From the NCBI GenBank assembly GCA_028283825.1, contig JAPWJW010000003.1, positions 2,480,501 to 2,544,500 of the forward strand: a DNA stretch of 64,000 nucleotides, given 5' to 3'. Shown here piece by piece: positions 28,150 through 54,199 of this stretch. The translations under genes and the position numbers were made by a program. How positions within the stretch are numbered: position 1 is the first letter of the stretch; every line of letters begins with the position of its first letter. This DNA is from Azospirillaceae bacterium (lineage in GTDB: Bacteria; Pseudomonadota; Alphaproteobacteria; Azospirillales; Azospirillaceae). The notes below the pieces were generated by a model. The model was not told where the DNA came from. It made no database searches and saw only the letters and a program-made list of their open reading frames with translations.

Positions 28150-28251
28150 CCCTCAGTCGCCGGGCGGCCACATCCGTGGCCTTGGCTTGTCCTCGATTTC
28201 CAGTCCGCCTTCGGCTCCCCAGAAATCTCCGGCGGCCGCGGTTGCGGCCTA
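28150..28251 (-). repeat. Dispersed structured repeat, copy A
   Basis: Canonical strand is minus. Invariant end CGCCCGGCGACTGAGGG lies at 28166-28150. Stems: H3 GGCCAC/GTGGCC with loop GGAT (28166-28181); H2 GATTTC/GAAATC (28195-28200 with 28222-28227); H1 GGCCGC/GCGGCC (28234-28249). The copy begins 12 bases after the pentapeptide gene stop. Confidence 0.85.
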
Positions 28252-28284
28252 CGGCATGAGAAACCTCATGCCGGCAGAAAAACA

Positions 28285-28320
28285 AAAGGCCCGGGAAGCG
28301 TCGCTGCTGCCCGGGCCTTT
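28285..28320. terminator. Strong bidirectional terminator between convergent genes
   Basis: An 11-bp perfect stem AAAGGCCCGGG (28285-28295) / CCCGGGCCTTT (28310-28320) serves the pentapeptide gene and leuB, which converge here. Confidence 0.88.
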
Positions 28321-28342
28321 CTCATTCCGTCGAGGGTATGCC

Positions 28343-29452
28343 TCAGGCGGCGAGTTTATCCAACTCACGCAGGATGCTGTCGCCCATCACGGAGGTGGAG
28401 CAGCGGGCCATGCCGGGGGACATGATGTCGGCCGTGCGCATGCCGCCCTTCAGGACGTTCTGCACCGCCCGGTCCAGCAGGTCGGCCTCTTCGCTGCGGT
28501 CGAAGGAGTAGCGCAGCGCCATGCCGAAGCTCAGCAGCGAGGCGATGGGGTTGGCGATGTCGCGGCCGGCGATGTCGGGGGCGGAACCGTGCACCGGCTC
28601 ATACAGCGCCTTGCGGCGGCCGGCGGCGTCGGTGGCGCCCAGCGAGGCGGACGGCAGCATGCCGATGGAACCGGTCAGCATGGCGGCCTGGTCCGACAGC
28701 ATGTCGCCGAACAGATTGTCGGTGACGATGACGTCGAACTGCTTGGGATTGCGCACCAGCTGCATGGAGCAGGCGTCGGCCAGCATGTGGCTCAGTTCCA
28801 CGTCGGTGTTGGCCTTCTGGTGCAGGGCGATCACCTCCTGCCGCCACAGCAGGCCGGATTCCATCACGTTGCCCTTTTCGCTGGAACAGACGCGGTTCTG
28901 GCGCTTGCGGGCCAGGTCGAAGGCCACCTGGGCGACGCGGTGGATTTCCGGGGTGGTGTAGACCTGGGTGTTCACGCCGCGACGGATGCCGTTGCCCAGG
29001 TCCTCAATGCCGCGCGGCTCACCGAAGTACACGCCGCCCGTCAGTTCGCGGACGATCATGATGTCCAGGCCGCGCACCACCTCGGGCTTCAGGGTCGAGG
29101 CGTCGACCAGGGCGTCGAACACCACGGCCGGGCGCAGGTTGGCGAACAGGTCCATTTCCTTGCGCAGGCGCAGCAGGCCGGCCTCGGGCCGCTTGTCGAA
29201 GCCGACATTGTCCCACTTCGGGCCGCCGACGGCGCCCAGCAGCACGGCGTCGGACGCCAGCGCCTGTTCCATGGTGGCGTCGGACAGGGGCACGCCGTGG
29301 GCGTCGATGGCGCAACCGCCCACCAGGCCTTCCGACACGGTGAATTCCAGGTCGCGGCGCTTGCCCATCCAGTCGATGACGCGTCGGACCTGGCGCATGA
29401 CTTCCGGCCCGATACCGTCGCCCGGCAGCATGAGAAGAGAATAAGCGGCCAT
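28343..29452 (-). CDS. leuB: 3-isopropylmalate dehydrogenase
   Basis: LeuB oxidises and decarboxylates 3-isopropylmalate in leucine synthesis. The 369-residue protein begins [19 protein letters not shown] and contains [34 protein letters not shown] and the NAD-binding [15 protein letters not shown] 29452 is the family start. It lies 212 bases downstream of leuD on the same strand; leuC is not in this window. Confidence 0.97.
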
Positions 29453-29664
29453 TGGATGAACCCTTTTCGTCGGATGGCGTGGCACGGGCCCCGTGGCCGC
29501 CGCCCGGCGCTGTCGCGGGAAGGGATGGCCGGCCGGGGCGTGCGGCGCGAACTGGCTAGGTGCCAAGTGAGTGCAAACTATCGGGGAGGGCGGTACCCTG
29601 CCAACCCCCCGTTTCGATCATCCCCTGTCGGGGGCGAAACCCCCACGGAATGGTCACGGGCGCT

Positions 29665-30279
29665 TCACCGCGCCCAGCGCCAGGGCTGGCCGGCCTGCTG
29701 CTGCGCCTCGAACGCGTCGATGCTGGAAACCTGCTGCAGGGTCAGGCCGATGTCGTCCAGGCCGTTCAGCAGGCAATGGCGGCGGAACGCCTCCACATCA
29801 AAGGCCACCGACTCGCCGTCCGGGGTGGTGATGACCTGCTTTTCCAAATCCACGGTGAAGGTGGCGTTGGCACCCTTCTCGGCCTCGGCCATCAGGCGGT
29901 TCACCACGTCCTGCGGCAGGGCGATGGGCAGGATGCCGTTCTTGAAGCAGTTGTTGAAGAAGATGTCGGCGAAGCTGGGCGCGATCACGCAGCGGATGCC
30001 ATAGTCCAGCAGGGCCCAGGGCGCATGCTCACGGGATGAGCCGCAGCCGAAATTGTCACCGGCCACCAGGATGCTGGCCTTGCGGTAGGCCGGCTTGTTC
30101 AGGACGAAGTCCGCCCGGTCGCTGCCATCGTCGTTGAACCGGAGGGAGGAGAACAGGCCGCTGCCCAGACCGGTGCGCTTGATGGTCTTCAGGTACCGCG
30201 CCGGGATGATCATGTCCGTGTCGATGTTCTGGATCGGCAGGGGGGCGGCGACGCCGGTCAGGATGGTGAACTTGTCCAT
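29665..30279 (-). CDS. leuD: 3-isopropylmalate dehydratase small subunit
   Basis: LeuD with LeuC isomerises 2- to 3-isopropylmalate. The 204-residue protein starts [20 protein letters not shown] and carries [13 protein letters not shown] and [20 protein letters not shown], the family signature. ATG 30279 is chosen on this similarity. The gap to leuB contains a GC-rich imperfect hairpin (GTTTCG/CGAAAC around 29611-29643). Confidence 0.96.
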
Positions 30280-30496
30280 GTGTCTCGTCCGGTGACTTCG
30301 ATTCAAGAGAAGGCTGCCCCTTTCTGCCACAAGGGCCTTGGGCGCAACAACCGTCCGCGCGGTCACGGGAACGCGCGCCAGCCCCCACCGAAACGCAAGG
30401 GAAGTACGGCGGCGGCCCATTTTCCGAACTTATATTGCGCGAAATAGGACAAGAGCGGCCCGCCGCAGGGGTGCGTTGAGGCTCCGTCGGTTGCCC

Positions 30497-30539
30497 GAAA
30501 CGGTGCGTTTCGATAAGAGGAAGCACCGTTTCCTCTTTT
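30497..30539 (+). promoter_or_regulatory. Attenuator-like leader of zapE
   Basis: Three helices exclude each other. CGAAAC (30496-30501) pairs with GTTTCG (30507-30512). GAAACGGTGC (30497-30506) pairs perfectly with GCACCGTTTC (30523-30532). AAGAGGAA (30515-30522) pairs with TTCCTCTT (30530-30537), followed by TT. The last looks like a terminator 20 bases before the zapE ATG, and the second would prevent it. Confidence 0.5.
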
Positions 30540-30558
30540 AAGAATTCCGGTTGCCGTC

Positions 30559-31683
30559 ATGACTGAAGGTCCCCTGTCCGTCTATCGCGCCCGGCGCGGC
30601 ACCGGCACCCTGAAGGCGGATCCCGCCCAGGAACTGGCGGCGGAAAAACTGCAAAGCCTGTGGCACGCGCTGAAGGACTATCGCCCGGCTTTGGGCCAGG
30701 GCGGCTGGCGCGCCCGCTTCGGCCTGACCCGGCGGCCCGACCCGGCCCCCCAGGGCCTGTACGTCTATGGCGATGTCGGCCGGGGCAAGTCCATGATCAT
30801 GGACCTGTTCTATGAGACGGCGCCGGTGCTGCGCCGCCGCCGCGTCCACTTCCACGCCTTCATGCAGGAGGTGCACCAGGCGCTGCACGGCCTGCGCCAG
30901 CGCCCGGACATGAAGAAGGGCGGCCCCGACGACTCGCTGCCCGAACTGGCCCGCCAGATCGCCGACCAGGCCTGGCTGCTGTGCTTCGACGAATTCCACG
31001 TCACCGACATCGCCGACGCCATGATCCTGGGCCGGCTGTTCACCCACCTGTTCGACCTGGGCGTGGTGGTGGTGGCGACCAGCAACTGGGCGCCCGATGA
31101 CCTCTACAAGAACGGCCTGCAGCGGGAGCTGTTCCTGCCGTTCATCGCCCTGCTGAAGGAAAAGCTGGACGTCCTGCACCTGGAAGGGGCGCGGGATTAC
31201 CGCCTGGCCCGCATCCGCGGCCGGCAGGTCTATTTCGACCCGCTGGGGCCGGCGGCCACGGCGGAACTGGAAAAGACCTTCCGCGACCTGACGGACGCGG
31301 AACCAACCGCCAGCCACCTGATCGTCCAGGGCCGCACCCTGCCGGTGCCCCGCCAGGCCAAGGGTGTGGCCTGGTTCACCTTTGATGAGCTGTGCCGCCA
31401 GCCGCTGGGGGCCGGCGATTACCTGGCCATCGCCACCCACTATCACACCGTGCTGCTGGACGGCGTGCCCATGCTGGACCCCAGCTTGCGCAACGAGGCC
31501 AAGCGCCTGATGACCTTCATCGACGCTTTGTACGAGCATAAGGTCCACCTGATCATGGCGGCGGAGGCGGCACCGGGCCAGCTGTACCCCGAGGGCGCGC
31601 ACGCCTTTGAATTCCAGCGCACCGTCAGCCGCCTGATGGAAATGCAGGCGGAGGACTATCTGGCGTCCGGCCATCTCACCTGA
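30559..31683 (+). CDS. zapE: ZapE/AFG1-family ATPase
   Basis: ZapE is a P-loop ATPase linked to cell division under stress; the AFG1 homologue acts in mitochondrial protein quality control. The 374-residue protein contains Walker [18 protein letters not shown] at about residues 72-88, Walker [19 protein letters not shown], and [20 protein letters not shown]. It precedes mdh and sucCDAB, as in many alphaproteobacteria. Its leader holds an attenuator-like set of hairpins. Confidence 0.93.
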
Positions 31684-31791
31684 CATTTAGCCTAACGTTT
31701 AGCCTATACCCCGCGTGGGGCACTTGAGTTCACCGTTGGCTGTCCGACATGGTAGCCTGTAGTGACGTTCGCCGCGCCCCCGGGGGAACCC

Positions 31792-33075
31792 TTGCCTTCG
31801 CCCACCTCGTCCAGCCACAGGCCCGCGATCGATTATGAAACCGCCAAGACGGTGGCCGCCGGCGGCGATGTGGACGCGCGCGTGCATCTGGCCGACAGCG
31901 CGGATACCCGGCCCGAATTGCTTTATTACCTGGCGGATGATGACGATGCCCGGGTGCGGGGGGCGGTGGTGACCAACGCCATGACCCCGGTGCGTGCCTA
32001 TGGTCGCCTGGCGCGCGACCCCAGCGACAACGTGCGCGCCCTGCTGGCGGAAAAGCTGGCCCGCCTGTTGCCCGACCTGTCGCGGCCGGAGGTGGGGGCG
32101 ATGCGCGACGTCGCCTATGCCGCGCTGGAACTGCTGGCGGCGGATCAGGTCATCCGCGTGCGCACCGCCCTGTCCAGCGCGCTGTCCGACGTGGAATGCG
32201 CCCCGCCCAAGCTGGCGGTGAAGCTGGCCCGCGACGTGGCGCGCGACGTGGCGGGGCCGGTGCTGCGCTGGTGCATGGCCCTGCCGGATGAGGAACTGCT
32301 GGACATCCTGTCCCGCCGGCCGGAGCCTTGGGTGGTGGAGGCGGTGGCCGGCCGGCGCACCGTGTCGCGCAGCGTGGGCGACGCCGTCGTGGCGGTGGGC
32401 GATCACGAATCCTGGGCTACCCTGGCCGGCAACCCCGGCGCCGACCTGTCGCCCAAGGCCCGCCGCCTGCTGACGGAAAGGGGCCATACGCCCATCGGCG
32501 GGGCGGGCGAGGGCGAGGCCGTTACCAATGCTGCCGACTCCACAGCACCCGGGACCACACCCGCCGGTCCGGCGGAGGTGACGCAGCGCCTGGCCAGCAT
32601 GCTGGAGGGCGCGCTGCGCGATGGCCTGGTGGGGCAGGCGGGCCTGGACAAGGCGGGGGTCGATGCGGTGGTGCAGGCGGCGGCGCGCCGGCTGGACTGG
32701 GCCGCCGGGTACGGCCGCAAGGAAGGGCCGGAGGACAAGGCCGCGCGGCTGGCGGCATCGGGCGGCCTGAATGAGGATGTAGTGTGCGATGCGCTCAGCT
32801 GGGGCGACCGGGAATTCGCCCAGGCCGCCGTGGCCCTGATGGCGCGGGTGCCGACGGATGTCGTGCGCCGCATCCTGTCGACCCAAAGTCCCCGCGCCGT
32901 GACGGCGCTGGCCTGGCGGGCGGGCTTCACCATGCGCGGTGCCCGTACGCTGCAGGCCCGTGGCGCCGGCATCGCCCCGCGCAAGCTGCTGAACGCCCGC
33001 CTGGGCACCGACTACCCGCTGAGCGAGGTGGAAATGCAGTGGCACCTGGAGATGTTCGACATCTTTTCCGCCTGA
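31792..33075 (+). CDS. DUF2336-family protein
   Basis: The product, about 427 residues, is mainly helical with HEAT-like repeats, for example ADTRPELLYYLADDDDARVR and LLAEKLARLLPDLSRPEV. DUF2336 proteins are common near TCA genes in alphaproteobacteria; their function is unknown. Start choice is open: TTG 31792 has GGGGGA four bases ahead; GTG 31762 is the alternative and lacks a ribosome-binding site. It lies between zapE and mdh. Confidence 0.78.
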   Translation: MPSPTSSSHRPAIDYETAKTVAAGGDVDARVHLADSADTRPELLYYLADDDDARVRGAVVTNAMTPVRAYGRLARDPSDNVRALLAEKLARLLPDLSRPEVGAMRDVAYAALELLAADQVIRVRTALSSALSDVECAPPKLAVKLARDVARDVAGPVLRWCMALPDEELLDILSRRPEPWVVEAVAGRRTVSRSVGDAVVAVGDHESWATLAGNPGADLSPKARRLLTERGHTPIGGAGEGEAVTNAADSTAPGTTPAGPAEVTQRLASMLEGALRDGLVGQAGLDKAGVDAVVQAAARRLDWAAGYGRKEGPEDKAARLAASGGLNEDVVCDALSWGDREFAQAAVALMARVPTDVVRRILSTQSPRAVTALAWRAGFTMRGARTLQARGAGIAPRKLLNARLGTDYPLSEVEMQWHLEMFDIFSA

Positions 33076-34492
<1,417 letters not shown>

Positions 34493-34520
34493 TCGATCGC
34501 TTTCCGGCTCAACCGGAGGT

Positions 34521-34552
34521 ATGGCCCCGCCCGCCCGTCGGCGCGGGGCCAT
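34521..34552 (+). terminator. Hairpin after mdh
   Basis: A 10-bp stem ATGGCCCCGC (34521-34530) / GCGGGGCCAT (34543-34552) lies 28 bases after the mdh stop, followed by only TTGT. It may partly terminate or stabilise the mdh mRNA ahead of sucC. Confidence 0.5.
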
Positions 34553-34720
34553 TGTCCGCCTGGGGCCGGGAAGTGGGTGTGCGCCGCACACCTCCTGTCA
34601 CTTTACGCGGTTGATCGGTCCGGCATTGCTCACTACAGTGCCCGCGGCGCGGGGTTGGCCCCGCGATCGGCCGCGATCTTTCCGAGGCCGTTTCCCAACC
34701 GGAAGCGGGCGATCCCCCGA

Positions 34721-35917
34721 ATGAATATTCATGAATACCAGGCCAAGGGCCTGCTGAAGAAATACGGCGTTGCGGTACCCCGCGGCGGCGTTGCCTACAC
34801 CCCTGAAGAGGCCGCGAAGGTGGCCGGCGACCTGGGCGGCCCCGTGTGGGTCGTGAAGTCCCAGATCCACGCCGGTGGCCGTGGCGCCGGGCGCTTCAAG
34901 GACAATCCGGAAGGCAAGGGCGGCGTCCGCGTCGTGAAGTCCGTCGATGACGTGACGTCCAACGCCAAGGAAATGCTGGGCCACGTGCTGGTGACCAAGC
35001 AGACCGGTCCGGAAGGCAAGGAGGTCAAGCGCCTCTATGTCGAGGAAGGCTGCGACATCAAGCGCGAGCTGTACCTGTCCCTGCTGCTGGACCGCGCCTC
35101 TTCCCGCGTCACCGTGATGGCCTCGACCGAGGGCGGCATGGAGATCGAGGAAGTGGCCCACAGCCACCCCGAGAAGATCGTCAAGGTCGCCATCGATCCG
35201 GTCAGCGGCCTGCAGGGCTTCCACGCCCGCCAGATCGCCTTCGGCCTGAAGCTGGAAGGCAAGCAGGTCAACGCCGCGGTGAAGTTCCTGACCGCCATGT
35301 ACAAGGCGTTCGTGGATCTGGACGCCTCGCAGGTCGAGATCAACCCGCTGGTCGTGACCGGTGCGGGTGACATCATCGCCCTCGACGCCAAGATGAACTT
35401 CGACGACAACGCCCTCTACCGTCACAAGGACATCGAAGAGCTCCGTGACGAGAGCGAGGAAGAGGCGTCGGAGACCGAGGCCACGAAGCACGGCCTGAAC
35501 TATGTGAAGCTGGATGGCAACATCGGCTGCATGGTCAACGGTGCCGGCCTGGCGATGGCCACCATGGACATCATCAAGTTGTACGGCGGCGAACCGGCTA
35601 ACTTCCTGGATGTCGGCGGCGGCGCCACCCGTGAACGCGTCACCACCGCGTTCAAGCTCATCCTGTCCGACCCGAATGTCGAAGGCATCCTGGTCAACAT
35701 CTTCGGCGGCATCATGCGCTGCGACGTCATCGCCGAAGGCGTGGTGGCGGCGGCCCGTGAGGTCAGCCTGCACGTCCCGCTGGTCGTCCGGCTGGAAGGC
35801 ACGAACGTCGAGCTGGGCAAGAAGATCCTGGCCGAGTCCGGCCTGCCCATCCTGTCCGCCGACAATCTGGCCGACGCTGCTGAAAAGATCGTCAAGGCCG
35901 TGAAGGAGGCCGCGTAA
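34721..35917 (+). CDS. sucC: Succinyl-CoA synthetase beta subunit (ADP/GDP-forming)
   Basis: The 398-residue protein starts [20 protein letters not shown] and has the ATP-grasp domain with [22 protein letters not shown], and the CoA-ligase part [14 protein letters not shown]-like segment ([16 protein letters not shown]) and [16 protein letters not shown] 34721 is the family start. It is followed by sucD after two bases, so the two are made together. Confidence 0.97.
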
Positions 35918-35919
35918 TC

Positions 35920-36795
35920 ATGGCCGTGTTGGTTGACAAGAACACCAAGGTGATCTGCCAGGGCTTTACCGGCGCGCAGGGCACCTTCCATTCCGAACAG
36001 GCCATCGCCTACGGCACCAAGATGGTCGGCGGCGTGACGCCCGGCAAGGGCGGCACCACCCACCTCGACCTGCCGGTGTTCGACACCGTGGCCGAGGCCG
36101 TGCACACGACCGGCGCCAACGCCTCGGTCATCTACGTGCCGCCGCCCTTCGCGGCCGACGCCATCCTGGAAGCCATCGACGCGGAAATCCCGCTGGTGGT
36201 CTGCATCACCGAAGGCATCCCGGTGCTGGACATGGTGACGGTGAAGCGCGCCCTGGTGGGTTCCAAGACCCGCCTGATCGGGCCGAACTGCCCCGGCGTC
36301 ATCACCCCGGATGAGTGCAAGATCGGCATCATGCCGGGCCACATCCACAAGCGTGGCAAGATCGGTATCGTCAGCCGTTCCGGCACCCTGACCTATGAGG
36401 CCGTGGCGCAGACCACCGCGGCCGGCCTGGGTCAGACCACCTGCATCGGCATCGGCGGCGACCCGGTCAACGGCACCAACTTCGTGGACAGCCTTCAGCT
36501 GTTCCTCGATGACCCGGAGACCGAGGGCATCATCATGATCGGTGAAATCGGCGGTTCGGCGGAAGTCGATGGCGCCGAGTTCATCCGCGACAGCAAGACG
36601 AAGAAGCCGGTCGTCGGTTTCATCGCCGGCCGCACGGCCCCTCCGGGCCGCCGCATGGGCCACGCTGGCGCCGTGATCTCCGGCGGCAACGACACCGCCG
36701 ACTTCAAGGTGGAGGCGCTGCGCGCCGCCGGCATCCATGTCGCCGACAGCCCGGCCAGCCTGGGCTCCACCATGCTGAAGGCCTTCAAGGGCTGA
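35920..36795 (+). CDS. sucD: Succinyl-CoA synthetase alpha subunit
   Basis: The 291-residue protein contains [17 protein letters not shown] (CoA binding), [31 protein letters not shown] and the phosphohistidine region [10 protein letters not shown] near residue 248. It completes the succinate-CoA ligase with SucC. A terminator hairpin follows. Confidence 0.97.
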
Positions 36796-41690: not shown

Positions 41691-41788
41691 TATGCCCGTT
41701 GAGGGCGCCGCAGCGGCGGGGGAGCGGTAGCGGACCCGCGAGCGAGGATAAGCCAAGCGGGCGGATGCCCGCGCCCGGCGTCTGAGGG
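41691..41788 (+). repeat. Dispersed structured repeat, copy B
   Basis: Plus orientation. H1 is weak (GCCC/GGGC, 41693-41705). H2 GCGGG/CCCGC (41716-41720 with 41735-41739), loop GGAGCGGTAGCGGA. Linker GAGGATAAGCCAA. H3 GCGGGC/GCCCGC with loop GGAT (41757-41772). Invariant end CGCCCGGCGTCTGAGGG (41772-41788). Its last GAGGGG is placed as the ribosome-binding site of lpd. Confidence 0.85.
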
Positions 41789-41798: not shown

Positions 41799-43211
41799 AT
41801 GACCACCGATACCCAATTCGATCTCGTCGTCATCGGCAGCGGCCCCGGCGGCTATGTCGCGGCCATCCGCGCGGCCCAGTTGGGCATGAAGACGGCTTGC
41901 GTCGAGATGCGCAAGACGCTGGGCGGCACCTGCCTGAACGTGGGCTGCATCCCGTCCAAGGCCCTGCTGGTGGCGTCCGAGAAGTTCGAAGAGGCCAACC
42001 ACAGCCTGGGCAACTTCGGCGTCAAGGTCTCGGGCGTGGAACTCGACCTGCCGACGATGATGAAGCACAAGGACGACGTGGTTAAGTCCAACGTCACCGG
42101 CGTGGAATTCCTGTTCAAGAAGAACAAGATCACCCGCTTCACCGGCAAGGGCAGCATCGCCGCCCCGGGCCAGGTGACGGTGACCAAGGAAGACGGCTCC
42201 ACCGAGACCGTCACCGCCAAGAACATCCTGATCGCCACCGGCTCCGATGTCATGCCCCTGCCGGGCGTGACCATCGACGAGAAGCGCATCGTCTCCTCCA
42301 CCGGCGCGCTGGAACTGGCAGGCGTGCCCAAGCGCCTGGTGGTCATCGGCGGCGGCGTCATCGGCCTGGAACTGGGTTCCGTCTGGCAGCGCCTGGGCTC
42401 GCAGGTCACCGTGGTGGAATTCCTGGACCGCATCCTGCCGACCATGGACGGCGAGATCTCCAAGCAGTCGCAGCGCATTCTGTCCAAGCAGGGCCTGTCC
42501 TTCAAGCTGTCGACCAAGGTCACCTCGGCCAAGGCGACGGACAAGGGCGTTACCCTGACGGTGGAGCCCGCCGCTGGCGGTGCGGCCGAGACCATCGAGG
42601 CCGACATCGTGCTGGTGGCCATCGGCCGCCGCCCCTACACCGAAGGCCTGGGCCTGGAGACGGTCGGTGTCGAGCTGGATGAGCGCAAGCGCGTCAAGAC
42701 CGACCACCACTTCCGCACCAACGTGCCCGGCATCTGGGCCATCGGCGACGTCATCGCCGGCGCCATGCTGGCCCACAAGGCCGAGGAAGAGGGCGTGGTC
42801 TGCGCCGAGGTGATGGCGGGCCAGTCCGGCCACATCAACTACGACGCCATCCCGGGCGTGGTCTACACCTGGCCGGAGATCGCCTCCGTCGGCAAGACGG
42901 AAGAGCAGCTGAAGGCCGCCGGCGTGAACTACAAGGTCGGCAAGTTCCCCTTCACCGCCAACGGCCGCGCCCGCTCCATGCAGGCGACCGAGGGTTTCGT
43001 GAAGCTGCTGGCCGACGCCCACTCCGACAAGCTGCTGGGTGCCCACATCATCGGCGCCTCGGCGGGTGAGATGATCGAGGAGCTGGTGCTGGCCCTGGAA
43101 TTCGGCGCCTCGTCGGAAGACATCGCCCGCAGCAGCCACGCCCACCCCACCCTGACCGAGGCCATCAAGGAAGCGGCCCTGGGCGTGCTGGGCCGCACCA
43201 TCCACATGTGA
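41799..43211 (+). CDS. lpdA: Dihydrolipoyl dehydrogenase E3
   Basis: E3 reoxidises dihydrolipoamide with FAD and NAD. The 470-residue protein has VVIGSGPGGYVAAIRAAQLG, the redox disulfide C45/C50 in GGTCLNVGCIPSKALL, a second nucleotide site GGGVIGLELGSVW, and the catalytic SHAHPTLTEA near the C-terminus. ATG 41799 follows the GAGGGG end of repeat copy B by 9 bases. Copy C follows six bases after the stop, so the gene is framed by two oppositely oriented copies. Confidence 0.97.
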   Translation: MTTDTQFDLVVIGSGPGGYVAAIRAAQLGMKTACVEMRKTLGGTCLNVGCIPSKALLVASEKFEEANHSLGNFGVKVSGVELDLPTMMKHKDDVVKSNVTGVEFLFKKNKITRFTGKGSIAAPGQVTVTKEDGSTETVTAKNILIATGSDVMPLPGVTIDEKRIVSSTGALELAGVPKRLVVIGGGVIGLELGSVWQRLGSQVTVVEFLDRILPTMDGEISKQSQRILSKQGLSFKLSTKVTSAKATDKGVTLTVEPAAGGAAETIEADIVLVAIGRRPYTEGLGLETVGVELDERKRVKTDHHFRTNVPGIWAIGDVIAGAMLAHKAEEEGVVCAEVMAGQSGHINYDAIPGVVYTWPEIASVGKTEEQLKAAGVNYKVGKFPFTANGRARSMQATEGFVKLLADAHSDKLLGAHIIGASAGEMIEELVLALEFGASSEDIARSSHAHPTLTEAIKEAALGVLGRTIHM

Positions 43212-43217
43212 TTGGTT

Positions 43218-43303
43218 CCCTCAGGCGCCGGGCGCCGGCATCCGCCGGCTTGGGCTTCCTCAGTTTCCAGTCCGCTCCGCTCCCCGGAAACTTCCGGCGG
43301 ACT
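43218..43303 (-). repeat. Dispersed structured repeat, copy C (H1 missing)
   Basis: Canonical strand is minus. Invariant end CGCCCGGCGCCTGAGGG at 43234-43218. H3 GCCGGC/GCCGGC with loop GGAT (43234-43249). H2 AGTTTCC/GGAAACT (43262-43268 with 43286-43292). H1 is absent or degraded. It begins six bases after the lpd stop. Confidence 0.85.
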
Positions 43304-43344
43304 AGGGGAGCGTCCTACAAGTTTTCCCGTTCGGGAGATACTGG

Positions 43345-44065: not shown

Positions 44066-44072
44066 GGATGGC

Positions 44073-44996: not shown

Positions 44997-45004
44997 GGTG
45001 TTCC

Positions 45005-45967: not shown

Positions 45968-46005
45968 GGCACACACGCTCCAAACATCTTTTCAGTCCTT
46001 TCCCC

Positions 46006-46105
46006 TAGGCCGCGACTGCGGCCGCCGGAGCGTTTTGGGGAGCGAAGCGGACTGAAACGCGAGGACAAGCCAAGCGGGCGGATGCCCGCGCCCGGCGTTT
46101 GAGGG
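46006..46105 (+). repeat. Dispersed structured repeat, copy D (best full-length copy)
   Basis: Plus orientation. H1 GGCCGC/GCGGCC, loop GACT (46008-46023). CGCCGG (46023-46028 region) can close with CCGGCG near 46092-46097. H2 GCGTTT/AAACGC (46030-46035 with 46055-46060). Linker GAGGACAAGCCAA. H3 GCGGGC/GCCCGC, loop GGAT (46074-46089). Invariant end CGCCCGGCGTTTGAGGG (46089-46105). It ends five bases from the DUF484 stop on the minus strand. Confidence 0.9.
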
Positions 46106-46110
46106 CGCAC

Positions 46111-46821
46111 TTAAAGAGCCAACCAACCTCTAATGCACCGCTCCACCACCCGTGCCAGGAAACACAGCAGCTCGGTGCCCTGGCCGGCGTGGAACAGGTC
46201 GGCGTCGCGGGAGCCGAAGGCCAGCAGGCCGATCGGCGCCTCCGGCCCGATCTGCAGGCGCACCAGCGCTTCCGAACGGATGATGGGGGCGGCGGGGCCG
46301 TAGATTTCCGTCAGGCCCTGGATGTTGCCGCGCAGGATGACGTCGCGCTTGTTCAGCCAGCGATTGATGGCGCCGGCCTCCGCCAGTTGCAGGCCGGTGC
46401 GGTCATGGTGCAGGGCCAGGCGGCTGTCTTCGGGCTGTTCCACCACCAGGCAGGCCAGATCCAGGTCCAGCAGGACGGCCAGGTCGGTGGTGATGGTCTG
46501 GATGAGGTGTTCGAAGTTCTGCGCGTCCATCAGGAACAGGGCGGCGGCGTGCACCCGGCTCTGGTTGTTGATGTTGGCGCGGGCGGTCGCGATCAGCTCT
46601 TCCTGCTGGGCCGTCAGGTCGGCCACCTCGCGGCGCAGTTTCAGCAGCATGAAGTGCTGCAGATCCGCCACCCCGTTGCCACGGTCTTCCGCCGGTGGGA
46701 CCAGGTGGTGGATCAGGTCGGGATGCTGTTGCAGGAAATCGGGGGTCTCGCGCAGGTATGTCGCGACATCCTCCGCGGTCAGGGCATCACCCAGGGCGCT
46801 GTGCGGCGTCTTGTTGCCCAT
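46111..46821 (-). CDS. DUF484-family protein
   Basis: The 236-residue protein begins with a helical segment TAEDVATYLRETPDFLQQHP, the DUF484 hallmark, then a coiled region and a GAF-like domain (about 95-230). DUF484 genes are commonly next to xerC. Function unknown. The start ATG 46821 has GGAAGGGAAG upstream; the frame continues further but runs into the transaldolase terminator. Confidence 0.9.
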   Translation of the reverse strand: MGNKTPHSALGDALTAEDVATYLRETPDFLQQHPDLIHHLVPPAEDRGNGVADLQHFMLLKLRREVADLTAQQEELIATARANINNQSRVHAAALFLMDAQNFEHLIQTITTDLAVLLDLDLACLVVEQPEDSRLALHHDRTGLQLAEAGAINRWLNKRDVILRGNIQGLTEIYGPAAPIIRSEALVRLQIGPEAPIGLLAFGSRDADLFHAGQGTELLCFLARVVERCIRGWLAL

Positions 46822-46884
46822 GCTGTCTTCCCTTCCTGCCGTGGCCCGATTGCGGCGGGCGGCGGCCGTGGCCTGAAAACGCAA

Positions 46885-46912
46885 CCGGCCCGCCCATCGC
46901 TGGGCGGGCCGG
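46885..46912 (-). terminator. Terminator of the transaldolase gene
   Basis: A perfect 12-bp stem CCGGCCCGCCCA (46885-46896) / TGGGCGGGCCGG (46901-46912) with a 4-base loop. On the minus strand TTGCGTTTT follows. Confidence 0.88.
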
Positions 46913-46940
46913 AAAGGCATCCGCTGGAACGCGAAGGGTA

Positions 46941-47621
46941 TCAGCGGGTCGGCAGCGGCTGATCCAGGATAGTCTGCCCGGTCTTGGCCCAGTCCGCAAC
47001 GAACTGCGCCAGGCCCTTGTCGGTCAGCACGTGGTTGAACAGCTGGCGGATGATGGACGGCGGCATGGTGGCCACGTGGGCGCCCATCTTGGCCGACTGG
47101 GTGACGTGGATGGGGTTGCGGATGCTGGCGACCAGGACCTCGGTGGTGAAGTCCGGGTACTGGTCATAGATGGTGACGATCTCTTCGATCAGGGCCAGCC
47201 CGTCCTGGCCGATGTCGTCCAGGCGGCCGACGAAGGGCGACACGAAGGTGGCGCCGGCCTTGGCGGCCAGGATGGCTTGGGCGGCGGAGAAGCACAGGGT
47301 CACGTTGACCATGGTGCCTTCCTGCGACAGGTGGTGGCAGACCTTCAGGCCGGCCTGGGTCAGGGGCACCTTCACCGCCACGTTGGGGGCGATCTTGGCC
47401 AGGTGCTTGCCTTCCTTCAGCATGGTCTCGAAGTCGGTCGAGGCGACCTCGGCGCTGACCGGGCCCTTCACCACGTCGCAGATCTCGGCGATCAGGTCGA
47501 TGAAGCTGCTGTGACCGGACTTGGCGACCAGCGACGGGTTGGTGGTGACGCCGTCCAGCAGGCCGGTGGACGCCAGGTCGCGGATGTCGTTGATGTCGGC
47601 GGTATCGACGAAGAACTTCAT
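46941..47621 (-). CDS. tal: Transaldolase / fructose-6-phosphate aldolase family (TalC-like)
   Basis: The 226-residue protein starts [20 protein letters not shown] and has the Schiff-base lysine in [12 protein letters not shown] and [13 protein letters not shown]. Small transaldolases of this length transfer dihydroxyacetone units in the pentose phosphate pathway or act as fructose-6-phosphate aldolases; sequence alone does not settle which. Monocistronic by its terminator. Confidence 0.92.
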
Positions 47622-47783
47622 GGGGGAAACCCTCAGGATCTGGATGGAACCGGGGCCCGCCCCGGGTTGGCCGGCACTCTAACCAAAGGCACCGTGCGGT
47701 GCACGGGCTGAAATGGCTAGGGCGGGGATAGGGGGCATGCGGGGATGGCGCACCGGTGGCCGTCGGTGGTAACAGCAATCCCC

Positions 47784-50012
47784 ATGGATCTGTTGTCGGC
47801 AAGCGGGATTGAAACGGGGCCTCCGCCGGTGCGGCGGGTGCGCGTGCTGCTGCCCTTGCCGCTGGCCAGCCCGTACGACTACCGCGTGCCCGACGACATG
47901 GAACTGGAGGCCGGCGCCTATGTCGAGGTGCCGCTGGGCCCGCGCCATGTGTTCGGCGTGGTCTGGGCCGTGGGCGGCGATGAGGACGGCGTGCCGGCCA
48001 AGCGGCTGAAGACCGTCATCCGCCGCTTTGACCTGCCGCCCATGCCCGAGGTGTCGCGCCGCTTCATCGATTGGGTGGCGGCCTACACCCTGTCGTCCAC
48101 CGGATCGGTGCTGCGCATGGCGGTCAGCGTCTCGGCGGCGCTGGAGGATCCCAAGCAGTTGCTGGCCTATCTGCCGTCAGGCGAGGCGCCGCCGCCCGGC
48201 TTCAAGATGACCGATGCCCGCCGCCGCGTCCTGGCGCTGATGGAGGCGGACGGGCCGCCCCGCACGCCGGCCGACCTGGCGCGCGACGCCGCCTGCGGCA
48301 TCGGCGTCATCCGCGGCCTGGCGGAATCGGGGCTGCTGACGCCCATCGCCCTGCGCGCCCAGCCGCGTCCGCCGGTACCCGACGCCCATAAGCCGGGCCC
48401 CGACCTGTCGCCGGACCAGGCCCTGGCCGCCGACGTCCTGCGCGCGGCGGTGGACGCCCGCGCCTATTCCGCCACCCTGGTGGACGGGGTCACCGGCTCG
48501 GGCAAGACGGAGGTTTATTTCGAGGCCATCGCCGCCTGCCTGAAGCAGGGCCGGCAGGCGCTGGTGCTGCTGCCGGAGATCGCCCTGTCCAGCCAGTGGC
48601 TGGATCGCTTCGCCCGGCGTTTCGGCGTGCGGCCGGTGGAATGGCACTCGGAACTGGCCGGCGCCCACCGCCGCGCCGCCTGGCGGTCCATCGTCAATGG
48701 CGAGGCCACGGTGGTGGTGGGCGCGCGTTCCGCCCTGTTCCTGCCCTATCCCGATCTGGGCCTGATCGTGGTGGATGAGGAGCATGAGGCCGCCTTCAAG
48801 CAGGAGGACGGCGTCATCTACCATGCCCGCGACATGGCGGTGGCGCGGGCCTTCCTGGGGGGCATTCCCATCGCCCTGGTCTCCGCCACCCCGTCGCTGG
48901 AGACGTTGACCAACGCGGAGACGGGGCGCTACGCCCGCATCGACCTGCCGGCCCGCCACGGTGGCGCCAGCATGCCGGATGTGACGCTGATCGACCTGCG
49001 CCGACCGGACAGCCGCCCGCCCGCCCGCCATTGGCTGTCGCCCATCCTGACGGCCGCGATGACGGAGACGCTGGCGGCGGGGGAGCAGGGCATGCTGTTC
49101 CTGAACCGCCGGGGCTATGCGCCCCTGACCCTGTGCCGCACCTGCGGCCATCGCCTGCAATGCCCCAACTGCACCGCCTGGCTGGTGGAGCACCGCCTCA
49201 GCCGCCGGCTGCAATGCCACCATTGCGGCTATACCGACCGCCTGCCCGAGGTCTGCCCGTCGTGCGAGGCGGAACATTCCTTCGTCGCCTGCGGCCCCGG
49301 CGTGGAAAGGGTGGCGGAGGAGGTGGCGCAGCTGTTCCCCGACGCCCGCGTGGCGCTGATGACCAGCGACACGCTGGTGGGGCCGCAGGCCATCCAGACG
49401 GTGATCGACGAGGTGCGGGCGCACAAGGTGGACCTGCTGATCGGCACGCAGGTGATGGCCAAGGGCCACCATTTCCCCATGCTGACCCTGGTGGGGGTGG
49501 TGGATGGCGACCTGGGCCTGGGTGGCGGCGATCTGCGCGCGGCGGAGCGCACCTTCCAGATGCTGCACCAGGTGGCGGGCCGGGCGGGGCGCGAAAGCCG
49601 GCCGGGCCGCGTCTTCCTGCAAACCCACATGCCGGAACATCCGGTGATGCAGGCGCTGGCCATCCATGACCGCGACGCCTTCCTGGCGGCGGAGGCCGAT
49701 GCCCGCCGCGCCATGGACCTGCCGCCCTACGGCCGGCTGGCGGCCCTGATCGTATCGGGCGAGGATGAGCGCCAGGTGGACAAGCTGGCCCGCGACCTGG
49801 CGCGGGTGGCCCCCCAGGGCGACGACGTCATGGTGCTGGGCCCGGCACCCGCCCCCCTGGCCCTGCTGCGCGGCCGGCACCGCCGCCGCCTGCTGCTGAA
49901 AACGGCGCGCGGGGTGGCGGTGCAGCCCCTGCTGCAAGCCTGGCTGGCGTCCCTGCCCATACCGGGGACGGTGCGGGTGCAGGTGGACGTGGATCCTTAC
50001 AGCTTCATGTAG
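47784..50012 (+). CDS. priA: Primosomal helicase PriA
   Basis: PriA restarts stalled replication forks. The 742-residue protein has the 3'-DNA-binding domain ([20 protein letters not shown]), Walker [16 protein letters not shown], Walker [20 protein letters not shown], and the zinc-binding cysteines in [13 protein letters not shown] and [20 protein letters not shown] 47784 is chosen; an ATG at 47745 would add 13 residues. The 3' end overlaps the next minus-strand gene by 8 bases. Confidence 0.96.
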
Positions 50013-50895
50013 GCGGCGCGACGCTCAGCCAATAGGCATGGCGCATCACCAGCGGCTGGCCATCGGGCGCGCTCTGGGTGCTGAAGGACAGGGTGCCGCC
50101 CCGGCGGGCCAGGATCAGGCGCAACTTGACCCCCCGGCCGTTCTCCTCCCCCCGGCCCTCGGCTACCAGGGTGACGTCCGTCGGCCCCGGCCCCGACCGG
50201 TATTCAACGATGCGGTGGCAGTGGGCCGGGCCATCACCGGCGATGCACCAGACTCGCCGGCCGACATCCAGCGACCAGGTTTCCCGTGACCGCACGGTCT
50301 TGCCCGGCCCGTCGTCGAAGGTGAAGGTCAAGGCGGGCACGCGTCCGCCCGTGACCGATAGCCCCGTGGGCAGGATCACCCGGCGGTCGGTGCCATAGTC
50401 GCGATAATCCAGGGTGCCGGTCCAAGTGCCGGCCAAGGCGGCACCCAGGGCGGCGGCGTCCGCATGCTTGCGGGTGCGATGCGTGGTCGCGGCCGATGTC
50501 CAGTCGATCAGGATGGGGATCGCCGCGCTCCGGTGGTTGTCGCTGCCGGGTGCACTTGTCGGCGGGAAAAGGTCTGATCGGGTGAGGCGGAGGTCGGCCG
50601 GGTGCTTCCATTCGACGGCCCATCGGTCGGGGGAGCCGAAACCGGTAGGCCAGCATTCGCCCGGGCTGTCATCCCGGGTGGCGGCCAGGATCCGGGGGGC
50701 CGGCTGGCCGTTGACGGCGATGATTTCCGACCCGGGCGGCGGTGCCCCGGGCTGGTCGTCGCTGGAGATAACGATCATCCGGCCTTCCACCGCAGTGACA
50801 CAGAAAGGCGGGCGGGGGGCAAGGGCGTCGGCTAGGGCGGGCCGGGCCGGGACGGATGCCAGGATAAGGGCGGTGAGAAAGTGGGGAACGCGCAT
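50005..50895 (-). CDS. Hypothetical exported protein
   Basis: The 296-residue product has a signal peptide ending PALADA. A short PDZ-like segment ([16 protein letters not shown]) lies near residue 57-72, and a C-terminal half of beta character contains [17 protein letters not shown] do not recognise the family. It follows the AraC gene on the same strand by 50 bases and overlaps the end of priA. Confidence 0.65.
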
Positions 50896-50945
50896 CAGGG
50901 GCCTCAGGGTCCATGCGGCCGGCGTCGCCCGGCCTTGTGGCCCAG

Positions 50946-52043
50946 CTAGACGGCCTCGCCGCCGGCCGTCGCCTCATTCCCCGTAAATCCACCGTTTTCC
51001 GGATTTTGAGCCGCACGCCAGCCGCTGGGGCTCATGCCCGTGCGTTCGCGGAACACCCGGTTGAAGCTGGCCTTGGAGGCGAAGCCGCAATCCAGCGCCA
51101 GGGCCAGCATCTCGCCGGGCTCGGCCTGGCGCAGGCGGGCCTGGACCGCTTCCACCCGCAGGCCGTTGATCAGGCCGCTGAAGGTGCAGCCCAGGCCCTG
51201 GTTGATGGCGCGCGACAGATAAGTCTCGTTGGTGCCCAGGCGCTGCGCCACCTGGGGCAGGGTCAAGTCCGGTTCCCGCCACCAGCCTGCCTGGCGGATG
51301 GCGGCGCGCCAGCGGTCCGCCTGGACCGTCCAGTCGCGGTCGCGCGGGGGCTTTGGCGTACCGGTGATCGGGGGCGGGACGGCGCGGCCGGCCTGCCGCC
51401 AGCCCTCCAGGCCCAAGCCCAGGATGATGGCGGCGAACGCCAGGTACTGCGGGAAGCGGTCATGGTAACTGAGGGGGACCAGCAGGCTGTCGATCGCATC
51501 GAAAGCCACCGCCACCAACAGCCACAACGCCAGGGCCGCCAACAGGGTACGCAGCCAGGGGTGGCCGGGTTGGCGGAGCCGGAGGGCGGCCACCAGGTAG
51601 ACGGCCAGCGACAGGGTGGCGGCCCAGGTCTGCACCGGGTCGATCCAGCGGACGTGGACGGTGTCGTTCCATCGCATCTTGGCCGCCAGCGGCAGGGCGA
51701 AGGCCCACAGGGTGTAGGCCAGGTTCAGGGCGGCGGGGGCGAAGTGCCAGGCCCAGCCGCGTGGCAGGTGCGGTGCCGCCAGCCGCCGTACATACAGGTA
51801 AAGCAGCGGCCCGGTGGCCAGGCCCAGGTTGAAGGGGGCGAAGGATAGCCAGGGATAGATGTCGTAAAAGCCGGCGTAACCCAGGACGTAGGGCATCAGG
51901 CGCAGCACCGCCACGCCCAGCAGGGCCGCCAGCAGGCGGTTGGCGGTGCGGTTGCCGGGGGCGGCCAGCAGCAGCAGGGCCACCAGCGCGCCGAAGCCGG
52001 CCGCCATGCCCAACATCGTACTCCAGGGACCGAAGCGGATCAT
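50946..52043 (-). CDS. AraC-family regulator with N-terminal membrane domain
   Basis: The 365-residue protein has six or seven hydrophobic segments in the first 225 residues and then a C-terminal AraC DNA-binding domain: LTLPQVAQRLGTNETYLSRAIN as first helix-turn-helix and LALDCGFASKASFNRVFRER as second. Membrane AraC regulators of this layout are presumed to sense envelope or extracellular signals. Start ATG 52043; an ATG 18 bases earlier is possible. The exported protein gene downstream could be in the same operon. Confidence 0.88.
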   Translation of the reverse strand: MIRFGPWSTMLGMAAGFGALVALLLLAAPGNRTANRLLAALLGVAVLRLMPYVLGYAGFYDIYPWLSFAPFNLGLATGPLLYLYVRRLAAPHLPRGWAWHFAPAALNLAYTLWAFALPLAAKMRWNDTVHVRWIDPVQTWAATLSLAVYLVAALRLRQPGHPWLRTLLAALALWLLVAVAFDAIDSLLVPLSYHDRFPQYLAFAAIILGLGLEGWRQAGRAVPPPITGTPKPPRDRDWTVQADRWRAAIRQAGWWREPDLTLPQVAQRLGTNETYLSRAINQGLGCTFSGLINGLRVEAVQARLRQAEPGEMLALALDCGFASKASFNRVFRERTGMSPSGWRAAQNPENGGFTGNEATAGGEAV

Positions 52044-52254
52044 GGCGCCTCCGCCGGACAATCTAGGGGCGAACGCGCCTCATCAGAAGCGCATTCGGCT
52101 ACAAATCCGCCCGCCATGAACGGCGGCCATGGACGCGGCGTCCCCGGCTGCCCTACGGTCGCCACGATCGGCGTCATAGTGTCGCTGGTACGAAATTCCC
52201 AACCCGGCGGCCCTTTGAGGTGCCGCCCAAGCATCGGAAGAAATGAGGGCCATC

Positions 52255-52950
52255 ATGAAGCGCTCTTCCCGTCTCATCGCCGCCGCCGCGACCGCCGTCG
52301 TGGCTTTGGGCGCCACCGTTCCCGCCTGGGCGGAGCCGCCGCCCTGGGCCGAGGCGTCGGGCTATCGTTATCATGACGACCGCCGTGGGGACGATCACCG
52401 GGGTGATGACCGCCGGTATGATGACCATCGGGGCGACGATCATTGGCGCGACGACCATCGCGGCCCGCCGGCCCATTACGTCGACCACCGCTCCGCCCAC
52501 TATCGCCAGTTCTACGGCGCGGACGTGGGCATCGACGCCGGCCGCTGTGACCGTGGCGCCGTCGGCATCAACCTGGGCACGGTGGTGGGCGCCCTGCTGG
52601 GCGGCATCGCCGGATCGCAGTTCGGCCACGGCGGCGGCAAGGCGGCCATGACCGGCGCCGGCGTGCTGCTGGGCGCCCTGGCGGGCAACGCCGCCTTCAA
52701 CCGCATGGACGACAGCGACCAGGGCTGCTTCGCCCAGACCATGGAAAAGGCGCCGGACGGCCAGCCCATCGTCTGGAACAACCCCGACAACGGCGCCCAG
52801 TACCAGATGACCCCGGTCAAGACCTGGGAGGAATCGCCCGACAACTACTGCCGCGAATACCAGAGCGTGGCCACCGTCGGCAGCCGCCCGCAGACGGTCA
52901 CCGGCACCGCCTGCCGCCAGCCCGACGGCCAGTGGAAGATCGTGAACTGA
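52255..52950 (+). CDS. Exported glycine-zipper protein with Asp/His/Arg repeat region
   Basis: The 231-residue product has a signal peptide ending PAWAE, an Asp/His/Arg-rich stretch of tandem RGDD-H units (about residues 40-70), then a glycine zipper (LGTVVGALLGGIAGSQFG, GAGVLLGALAGNAAF) and a C-terminal domain with paired cysteines (SPDNYCREYQ, GTACRQPDGQW), resembling the 17-kDa surface antigen family. It is likely an outer-envelope protein. GAGGG five bases before ATG 52255 supports this start over ATG 52243. Divergent from the AraC gene. Confidence 0.8.
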   Translation: MKRSSRLIAAAATAVVALGATVPAWAEPPPWAEASGYRYHDDRRGDDHRGDDRRYDDHRGDDHWRDDHRGPPAHYVDHRSAHYRQFYGADVGIDAGRCDRGAVGINLGTVVGALLGGIAGSQFGHGGGKAAMTGAGVLLGALAGNAAFNRMDDSDQGCFAQTMEKAPDGQPIVWNNPDNGAQYQMTPVKTWEESPDNYCREYQSVATVGSRPQTVTGTACRQPDGQWKIVN

Positions 52951-52956
52951 TACGCG

Positions 52957-52986
52957 TGGGCCTTCGTCGATGAGGGCGAAGGCCCA
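52957..52986. terminator. Bidirectional terminator between convergent genes
   Basis: A 10-bp stem TGGGCCTTCG (52957-52966) / CGAAGGCCCA (52977-52986), followed by TTTC, seven bases before the hydrolase stop. Confidence 0.8.
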
Positions 52987-52992
52987 TTTCGC

Positions 52993-54039
52993 TCATGCGA
53001 AGCCGTGCCGTTTCAGCCAGCGGCGATAGAGGTCCGGCCAGGGTTCGGCGGAGCGGCCCTCGATGCTGCGCAAGGCGAAGCCGTGGCCGCCCGATTCGAA
53101 GACATGCATTTCGGCCGCCACGTCCTGGCGGCGCAGGGCCTGGAACATGGCCAGGCTGTTGCCCACCGGCACGGCGCCGTCATCGGCGGCGTGGACCAGG
53201 AAGGTGGGGCAGGTGCCGGTGCGCACGTTCTGGTCCGGTGAATAGGCCGTCACCTGTTCCGGCGTGGGATGGGCGCCCAGCAGCTGTTGCTTCGACCCCG
53301 GGTGGGTCAACCCGTCCTGCATGGAGATGACCGGATAGGCCAGGCCGCCCAGTTGCGGGGCTGCCGGCAGGCTGTCGGCCCCGTCCACCGGGGCGTAGAC
53401 GGGGGCGTCGTGGCGGGTGATCAGGCTGGCGGCCAGATGGCCGCCGGCGGAAAAGCCCAGGACGCCGATGCGGTTGCCATCCACCGACCACTCCCTGGCA
53501 TTCTGCCGCAGCAGGCGCATGGCCCGCTGGGCGTCCTGCAACGGCGTGTCGGGTCCCCCCTTCCAGCCGGCGGCCGGCAGGCGGTAGGTCAGTACGGCGG
53601 CGTGCAGGCCGCTGCCCGACAGCCAGCGGGCGACGTCGTAGCCCTCCTTGTCGAACCAGACATCGACATAGCCGCCGCCGGGGATCACCAGCACGGTGCC
53701 GCGCGGGCCCGGACTGGTGCTGCGGAAAAAGGCCAGGCTGGGGCTGGCCACGGACTCGGCGGTGCGGTCGCTGGGGCCGCCGGCCGGGCCGTGGTCGATC
53801 ACCAGGTCCTTCACCGTCAGGCCCTCGCCGCCCGGCGGGATGCCGGGCCACAGCGGCACGACCGCGTCCGGCGCCCTGCGCTGCCGGGATAGGCGCACGG
53901 CCTCCATCATGCCGGCGTCGTTGGCCGGGCCAACCGGGGCGGCCCCTTGCGCGGCGCCGGCCTCGCGGGTGCCCCGCAACAGGGCGGCGGTGGCCAGGGC
54001 CGCGGCGGCGATCCCCCGGCGGCTGATCTGGATGGTCAT
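52993..54039 (-). CDS. Exported alpha/beta hydrolase (acetyl-esterase/xylanase-like)
   Basis: The 348-residue protein has a twin-arginine-like start (ISRRGIAAAALATAALL), then the esterase fold: oxyanion region VLVIPGGGYVDVW, nucleophile GFSAGGHLAAS, acid in FLVHAADDGAVPV and histidine in FESGGHGFAL. Relatives include carbohydrate acetyl-esterases. ATG 54039 is preceded by GGGAGAA; an earlier in-frame ATG would spoil the signal peptide. Export through Tat is inferred. Confidence 0.85.
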   Translation of the reverse strand: MTIQISRRGIAAAALATAALLRGTREAGAAQGAAPVGPANDAGMMEAVRLSRQRRAPDAVVPLWPGIPPGGEGLTVKDLVIDHGPAGGPSDRTAESVASPSLAFFRSTSPGPRGTVLVIPGGGYVDVWFDKEGYDVARWLSGSGLHAAVLTYRLPAAGWKGGPDTPLQDAQRAMRLLRQNAREWSVDGNRIGVLGFSAGGHLAASLITRHDAPVYAPVDGADSLPAAPQLGGLAYPVISMQDGLTHPGSKQQLLGAHPTPEQVTAYSPDQNVRTGTCPTFLVHAADDGAVPVGNSLAMFQALRRQDVAAEMHVFESGGHGFALRSIEGRSAEPWPDLYRRWLKRHGFA

Positions 54040-54100
54040 GTTTTCATTCTCCCTGATGGACGAGAATACCGGCGGCATGAAGCCCTGGCTCATGCCGCCG

Positions 54101-54199
54101 TAGGCTGCGACCGCAGCCGCCGCAGGTTTCCGGGGAGCGTCAGCGGACTGGAAACCGAGGAAGCCTAGCCGCCGGACGGCGGCGCCCGGCGCTTGAGGG
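54101..54199 (+). repeat. Dispersed structured repeat, copy E
   Basis: Plus orientation. H1 GGCTGC/GCAGCC, loop GACC (54103-54118). H2 GGTTTCC/GGAAACC (54125-54131 with 54150-54156). H3 GCCGCC/GGCGGC, loop GGAC (54168-54183). Invariant end CGCCCGGCGCTTGAGGG (54183-54199). It ends 12 bases from the pmbA stop on the minus strand. Confidence 0.9.

Follow-up and report, generated by a model that had tools for sequence, protein, structure and literature searches.

The window analysed here, meaning the whole stretch of 64,000 nucleotides (nt) at positions 2,480,501 to 2,544,500 of contig JAPWJW010000003.1, the third contig of the Azospirillaceae assembly GCA_028283825.1, carries six copies of an intergenic repeat, all ending in a 17-base tail, CGCCCGGCGNYTGAGGG, that has exactly six exact occurrences in the window. 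The genome (G000) is 99.99% complete and probably belongs to Nitrospirillum. The core of the repeat, about 100 nt long, consists of the hairpins H1 and H2, followed by AGCC-AA-H3-GCCC-GGC and the tail; a further hairpin, H0, can precede it, and in full copies another, H4, follows. The gene names odhB and lpdA used for this region were transferred from plasmid records matching the same stretch and are presumptive, hence "lpdA-like". The features are as follows.

28150-28252, minus strand: element copy c1, without TACC end and without H4 (tail search, covariance model)
about 28253-28274, minus strand: 5' hairpin H0 of c1 (GGCATGAG..CTCATGCC), additional to the core
33109-33199, plus strand: element copy c2, short-H2 form (tail search, covariance model)
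41691-41788, plus strand: element copy c3, its tail ending 10 bp upstream of the ATG at 41799 (lpdA-like)
41772-41788, plus strand: tail of c3, in a Shine-Dalgarno-like position
43218-43318, minus strand: element copy c4, its tail 6 bp from the stop of the open reading frame at 41799-43211
46005-46105, plus strand: element copy c5, core only (tail search, covariance model)
46008-46023, plus strand: H1 of c5, GGCCGC GACT GCGGCC (structure model, covariation)
46030-46060, plus strand: H2 of c5, long form, with internal loop GGGGAGC..GCGGAC (structure model, covariation)
46069-46071, plus strand: linker GCC of c5, with proposed partner GGC at 46094-46096
46074-46089, plus strand: H3 of c5, loop GGAT (structure model, covariation)
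46089-46105, plus strand: tail CGCCCGGCGNYTGAGGG of c5 (exact tail search)
54067-54099, plus strand: hairpin H0 before c6, with a TACCGG left end; the right end of c6 is absent
54100-54199, plus strand: element copy c6 (tail search, covariance model)

A preliminary description of this DNA had placed six copies at these sites and on these strands, between genes, and in the window all six were found there and between predicted genes; only the ends of the minus-strand copies are drawn slightly longer by the model (28150-28252 and 43218-43318). The copy at 33109 carries the short form of H2. The near-constant end described for the six copies is correct for them, but family-wide it is looser, since the exact 17-mer occurs in 25 of 61 copies found irrespective of the tail, of which 50 end in TGAGGG or TGAGGA. 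Two of the window copies, at 28150 (c1) and 54101 (c6), have the extra 5' hairpin H0, and all six are remnants without complete ends.

The exact tail occurs 280 times in the genome (138 forward, 142 reverse) while the reversed motif used as control does not occur at all, which excludes chance. The covariance model R1 was trained on 33 copies picked by their exact tail, with the mosaic or odd copies in L010, L022 and L023 left out, and the initial model structure is therefore biased toward good copies. All 150 candidates that were scored, from 15,970 first-look candidates, matched it with E values of 2.3e-15 or better. In 424 kb of sequence taken irrespective of the motif, the window included, the model identified 61 copies (E <= 0.01), among them all six window copies, while exact tails number 27 in the same stretch. 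Our own arithmetic extrapolates this to ~1030 copies per genome when scaled by density, or ~630 when scaled by exact tails. The preliminary description had recognized a dispersed non-coding family and anticipated tens to hundreds of intergenic copies in a covariance-model search; the 280 exact tails and the 61 model matches, all of them intergenic, bear this out, and six copies understated a family with hundreds of copies in this genome. The mobility, the occurrence in several orders and the orthologous copy in front of lpdA go beyond that description.

The placement of these copies relative to genes is biased. According to a simple in-house gene caller (374 genes in the 424 kb, with rough starts and a tolerated overlap of 40 bp), 28 of the 61 copies lie in convergent gaps, 31 in tandem gaps (12 sense, 19 antisense) and only 2 in divergent gaps, whereas the 245 available gaps of at least 80 bp comprise 41 convergent, 140 tandem and 64 divergent ones. 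The chi-square p value is 3e-10 by gap number and 9e-8 by gap length, a control that is weakened because the elements lengthen their own gaps. In 47 of the 61 copies the tail points at the end of a convergent gene, with a median distance to the stop of 12 bp. The model-hit counts given here and below (61 copies, 112-copy alignment) refer to rows fitted to the model, and some loci of the latter were chosen by tail or score.

The stems of the core covary strongly and change sequence by paired substitutions. In an alignment of 112 distinct copies from G000, which was fitted to the covariance model and hence favours pairing, 97.9% of the cells are paired. Two-sided changes were found in 17 of 29 pairs, a number of pairs that was equalled once in 500 shuffles, and in 436 cells compared to 110 in shuffles, none of the 500 shuffles being as high; when the pairing was slid by 1-3 columns, the two-sided cells did not exceed 76. 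The stems vary widely, with 20 distinct 5' arms for H1, 39 for H2 and 28 for H3, whereas at least 103 of the 112 copies have an H1 loop made of GAC and one more base, and the H3 loop reads GGAT in 93 copies and GGAC in a further 9. A count free of any model, based on copies of named genomes selected solely by AGCCAA and the tail, gave 84 distinct H3 hairpins. A full 6-bp stem is present in 66 of them, compared to 4.2 on average and at most 10 for re-dealt arms; the centre of H3 contains GGA in 64 of the 84. In 8 of the 112 copies of G000 the linker C is exchanged for G together with a G to C exchange in the tail, which supports the pairing of AGCC with the tail GGC around H3. The same exchanges break the pairing of 5' GCCGG with tail CCGGC of our first structure drawing, which was rejected but is still retained in model R1.

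Complete elements were found outside the window, in genomes that we take to be Azospirillum endophyticum (G020) and the Rhodospirillales metagenome-assembled genome (MAG) C5coas_bin-2163 (G055). Where it could be measured, the full element is 142-181 bp long, and in G020 it has 159 bp in 7 of the 9 copies measured automatically, with the layout TACC-H0-H1-H2-AGCCAAG-H3-tail-H4-GGTA. Its termini are inverted repeats: in G020 one 23-base pattern (with at most 3 mismatches) fits both ends and gives 23 matches compared to none for the reversed control. Among the 10 cores found in G020, nine have both ends, and eight of these are flanked by the same TNA on both sides, L082 being the exception (TGA/TAA); five further loci of this genome with divergent copies yielded no measurable pair of ends. 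In G055, both ends are present at 14 of 40 cores and the flanking 3-mers are equal in 9 of these 14, compared to 0, 1, 1, 1, 1 and 0 of 14 at the next six outward offsets; a laxer rule gave equal flanks in 11 of 16. The two TNA are direct and not inverted repeats and hence represent a duplicated target rather than a prolongation of the inverted ends. Most of the Nitrospirillum copies inspected lack one or both ends; equal TNA flanks are recognizable by eye at L012, L048 and L060, and the Nitrospirillum iridis copy L224 is flanked by TGA/TGA. The element is thus short, non-coding and present in high copy number, and the TACC...GGTA inverted ends together with the TNA duplication of recent copies indicate a spread in the manner of miniature inverted-repeat transposable elements (MITEs). 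Such MITE-like movement of recent copies is well supported.

Eight of the nine G020 insertions (L081-L090) fall precisely on a TAA or TGA stop codon, and the duplication restores the stop where both TNA agree; as background, 332 of 3137 available TNA sites in Nitrospirillum are stop codons. Stop-codon targeting was nevertheless rejected as a general rule, because it was seen in 0 of 16 insertions in G055 and 4 of 14 at other loci, with the reservations that the codon model, having been trained on Nitrospirillum, could be unreliable in other genomes, and that the 14 other sites are not independent, since some of them are loci of the G055 MAG and G020 carrying public names. Besides single copies, there are deletion derivatives as well as tandem and mosaic copies. 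In several genera two or three elements, ~105-135 bp apart, form tandem arrays (L114:8520-8838, L099:799-1040, L272 and L248). The mosaics L010:1415-1517 and L023:1413-1517 show a tail fused to an inverted shortened copy and a direct fusion of an H0-H1 unit with the tail. Two other repeats were noticed close to elements, one containing TAGAGCATTTTGAAATAAGGCTGAATCGG downstream of two of them (L127 after 9954, L128 after 3428), and another with GATCGCATCTTGCTCTA or TAGAGCGGATTTACA-like letters in L010, L013 and L025.

Synteny of the window region with six relatives permitted a comparison of orthologous sites, counting relatives with both flanks matched. No element was found at the site of c1 in 4 of 4, of c2 in 5 of 5 and of c6 in 6 of 6 matched relatives; near c1, G004 shows two weak model matches (E 0.009) that look degenerate by eye. 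The c4 site has no element in the two matched relatives G004 and G006, and a model match in G002. At c5 the element is present in G001, G005 and G006 and as a deletion derivative in G002, absent from G003, and replaced by other DNA in G004. The intergenic regions have diverged, and sites without an element are therefore not letter-for-letter empty sites. Only c3 is found at the same place in all six relatives and thus in 7 of 7 species. At this locus TGAGGG ends 9 or 10 nt upstream of the lpdA-like ATG in all seven species, although in G001 and G006 it belongs to an additional short tail that follows an element with the end TGAGGC. H1 and H3 of c3 fold in every species, with one mismatch in H3 of G006, and the seven species display four different H3 arm sequences. 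The mean identity is 94.6% for the first 600 nt of the gene, 57.1% for the 100 nt upstream of the element and 70.2% for the element itself.

The family is distributed patchily over several orders of alphaproteobacteria. Within its own genus the exact tail is present in 7 of 7 genomes with 59 to 280 copies each, and within the bacterial family in 33 of 82 genomes, namely, besides the own genus, in a second genus, g11, in 11 of 11 (12-117 copies), in g4 in 3 of 5 (555, 6 and 1 copies), in g3 in 10 of 45 (1-11 copies), and as two single matches. The 555 exact tails in G055 point to a burst, as the other four genomes of that group have 0-6. A reversed short-tail control gave a single match in 7 of the 82 family genomes, and genomes with one tail match may therefore be chance. 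Class-wide, a strict core-plus-tail pattern was found in 25 of 385 genomes and 20 of 277 genera, the reversed control in 0 of 385. A scan of named genomes returned at least 119 stretches; among the matches listed are Rhodospirillales, Acetobacteraceae and Sphingomonadales (Erythrobacter, Qipengyuania, Croceicoccus and Sphingomonas). These cross-order scans used the exact tail and thus show the recurrence of the tail, not the extent of variation. For 116 copies of the named genomes, the nearest feature within 120 nt behind the tail is a coding-like start in 33 and a convergent stop in 38. A coding-like start 5-16 nt behind the tail was seen at 11 of the 116 copies; the distance is 9 nt in seven of these, and four are from Paramagnetospirillum or Magnetospirillum.

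Taken together, we regard it as likely that the repeat is a non-autonomous, MITE-kind intergenic element whose core works as a folded part of transcripts. A full copy consists of the structured core of ~100 nt framed by inverted ends (H0 on the left, H4 on the right, TACC...GGTA) and inserts at TNA, which is thereby duplicated. This type of insertion points to a DDE transposase that would be supplied in trans. In Nitrospirillum the ends have mostly decayed, while many copies retain H1, H2, the AGCC...GGC helix around H3 and the near-constant tail. The core may serve mostly as a 3' structure next to gene ends, and at some loci, such as lpdA, possibly as a leader with TGAGGG as putative ribosome-binding site. 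The transposon part of this explanation is held with more confidence than the RNA part. In favour of a role in transcripts, c3 has been retained without ends, the loops are conserved, and at some genes the tail occupies the ribosome-binding position. The bursts and the speed at which the hairpins change speak instead for a selfish element, with transposition or hairpin-directed mutation preserving its hairpins.

Several results weigh against this explanation. The Nitrospirillum stretches yield a single copy under the strict rule that demands both ends, and its flanks are unequal (TGA/TCA). Among the 116 copies from named genomes, 45 lack both a start and a convergent stop in the 120 nt behind the tail. 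The strand test for an RNA fold gave 126 G-U versus 15 A-C cells, yet 110 of the 126 originate from two helix-end pairs, and without these the ratio is 16 to 15. The mover also escaped the searches: there was no autonomous partner among 19 DDE_Tnp_1 loci of G000 and G055, no TACC ends were present among the best inverted repeats at 7 DUF4096 loci of G020 and G030, and a scan of 2.17 Mb gave 10 partner candidates of which none was convincing, with most transposase families and genomes outside these searches, including G000 for DUF4096 and G020 for DDE_Tnp_1.

Some candidate partner loci were considered individually and rejected. The insertion sequence in L142 (about 820-2340, G000:C3 near 215 kb), which seemed to start with the left end of the element, is an IS1182-family element inserted in H0 of a copy; the same 1508-bp stretch recurs with 99.8% identity at L143, where no element was seen beside it. 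L136 and L091 contain transposase remnants next to or touching elements, but no complete element with shared ends: in L136 (G055:C252) a transposase remnant and, judged by eye, a YefM/YoeB-like antitoxin-toxin pair lie between two elements, and at L091:1845-2000 (G023:C23) the C-terminal part of what looks like an IS5-like transposase runs up to an element missing H0. Two G020 stretches that partly match the right end harbour no insertion sequence with such ends. A plasmid or phage origin was dismissed as well, since, with c5 as query, a search of 72,556 plasmid records returned a single partial match, covering 38% of the query, in Azospirillum lipoferum, and phages gave none.

For the core, a strong rival is a purely selfish MITE, in which pairing persists because only foldable copies transpose, or through template-switching correction of the arms, without any benefit for the host. 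We consider this quite possible, if somewhat short of an even chance. The patchy spread, the burst in G055 and the deletion, tandem and mosaic copies agree with it, as do the four H3 arms of c3 among seven species beside a gene that is 95% identical. On the other hand, all 7 species have kept c3 although it lacks ends, and the GGA of the H3 loop is kept in most of the distinct hairpins, although pairing alone needs no such loop.

The reverse view, that a host regulatory RNA or 3'-untranslated-region element consists of beneficial copies spread mainly by recombination and selection, appears rather doubtful to us. It would account for the excess of convergent over divergent gaps and for the tail in ribosome-binding position at lpdA and at the 11 copies elsewhere. 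However, the gap-type bias could result from promoter avoidance alone, recent copies have target duplications and inverted ends, and the sites of c1, c2, c4 and c6 are without element in matched relatives, apart from c4 in G002 and the degenerate matches near c1 in G004.

It is very unlikely that the repeat belongs to a family that has already been named, such as RIME, Bru-RS or the Caulobacter intergenic repeats (CIR), which were compared by description only. These are likewise alphaproteobacterial, intergenic and about 100 bp long, but no Rhizobium, Brucella or Caulobacter appears among the matches listed. Searched at the gathering threshold, Rfam 15 matched nothing in the window and no element at 18 of the 119 named loci, where a riboswitch and a signal recognition particle RNA were found outside the elements. 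A permissive E-value scan of five loci gave a tRNA beside an element and otherwise weak matches on elements, far below the gathering scores and hence not taken as a known RNA. In the open literature searched, with most subscription journals outside, the tail was printed nowhere in six spellings and keyword searches found no such family named. The preliminary description, which knew of no name for the family and suggested a comparison with Rfam, has therefore held, and a match to a named repeat was not seen.

Movement by a Y1 tyrosine transposase, as in repetitive extragenic palindromic (REP) sequences and bacterial interspersed mosaic elements (BIMEs) mobilized by REP-associated tyrosine transposases (RAYTs), is highly improbable. 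Intergenic palindromes near gene ends, the GTAG often found before H1, and mosaic and tandem copies would fit, and Y1_Tnp matches occur in 7 of 24 element-bearing genomes, including G055 with its 555 exact tails, compared to 4 of 16 other genomes. However, Y1_Tnp (PF01797) gave no candidates in G000 and none in G020 and is missing from 17 of the 24 element-bearing genomes; for the own genome a REP/BIME origin was rejected because there is no Y1 transposase, unless a RAYT acted there and was then lost. The 3-bp target duplication and the multi-hairpin core also speak against it: a REP unit is a single imperfect palindrome of 20-40 nt, and the preliminary description was right in regarding the present element, with a core of ~100 nt and three covarying hairpins, as larger. 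The H3 loop, GGAT or GGAC, resembles the looped GGA to which the RNA-binding protein CsrA binds, but a role as CsrA decoy has a negligible chance, because CsrA (PF02599) is absent from G000, which rejects it for Nitrospirillum, as well as from G020, G055, G066 (apparently Aerophototrophica crusticola), G067 and G069, and occurs in 6 of 24 element-bearing versus 4 of 16 other genomes.

A bolder version of the MITE-kind explanation would regard the core as a true RNA module of several alphaproteobacterial orders inside a transposon shell, with loops and tail recognized by a protein or the ribosome, some copies adopted as 3' ends or, as at lpdA, as leaders that bring their own ribosome-binding site, and freely drifting stems; we offer it tentatively and consider it rather unlikely. 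If the core is indeed a functional RNA, an unrecognised regulatory module would have arrived by transposition. In any case, hundreds of copies, several orders and paired substitutions provide an unusually clear natural experiment on what keeps repeats folded, and transposition, mutation in hairpins and host function as candidate keepers can be compared via the fast-changing orthologous Nitrospirillum copies.

Regarding known systems, the IS1031 and IS427 groups of the IS5 family generate TNA duplications, the same 3-bp type as found here, and none with TACC ends was among the loci examined. The RIME/ABC mosaic elements of Rhizobium are alphaproteobacterial intergenic mosaic repeats with palindromes; the likeness is one of description and not of sequence alignment, and no rhizobial genus is among the matches listed. 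Judged against RIME, Bru-RS and Caulobacter repeats by description alone, the family is apparently undescribed. REP/BIME sequences with their RAYTs (PMC2817692) resemble it in intergenic palindromes, mosaics and tandem copies, but the present element differs in its larger multi-hairpin core, the TNA duplication and an own genome without Y1 transposase. Bacterial MITEs are described in the review PMC10969869 as short, non-coding, multicopy, foldable and intergenic, with terminal inverted repeats and a short target duplication; the element shares length, copy number, ends, duplication, foldability and intergenic placing with them, but is GC-rich, whereas MITEs are described there as typically AT-rich. 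Unlike MITEs, it shows no related insertion sequence at the loci searched, has mostly lost its ends in Nitrospirillum, and possesses a core of covarying hairpins with a near-constant tail that is common to several orders.

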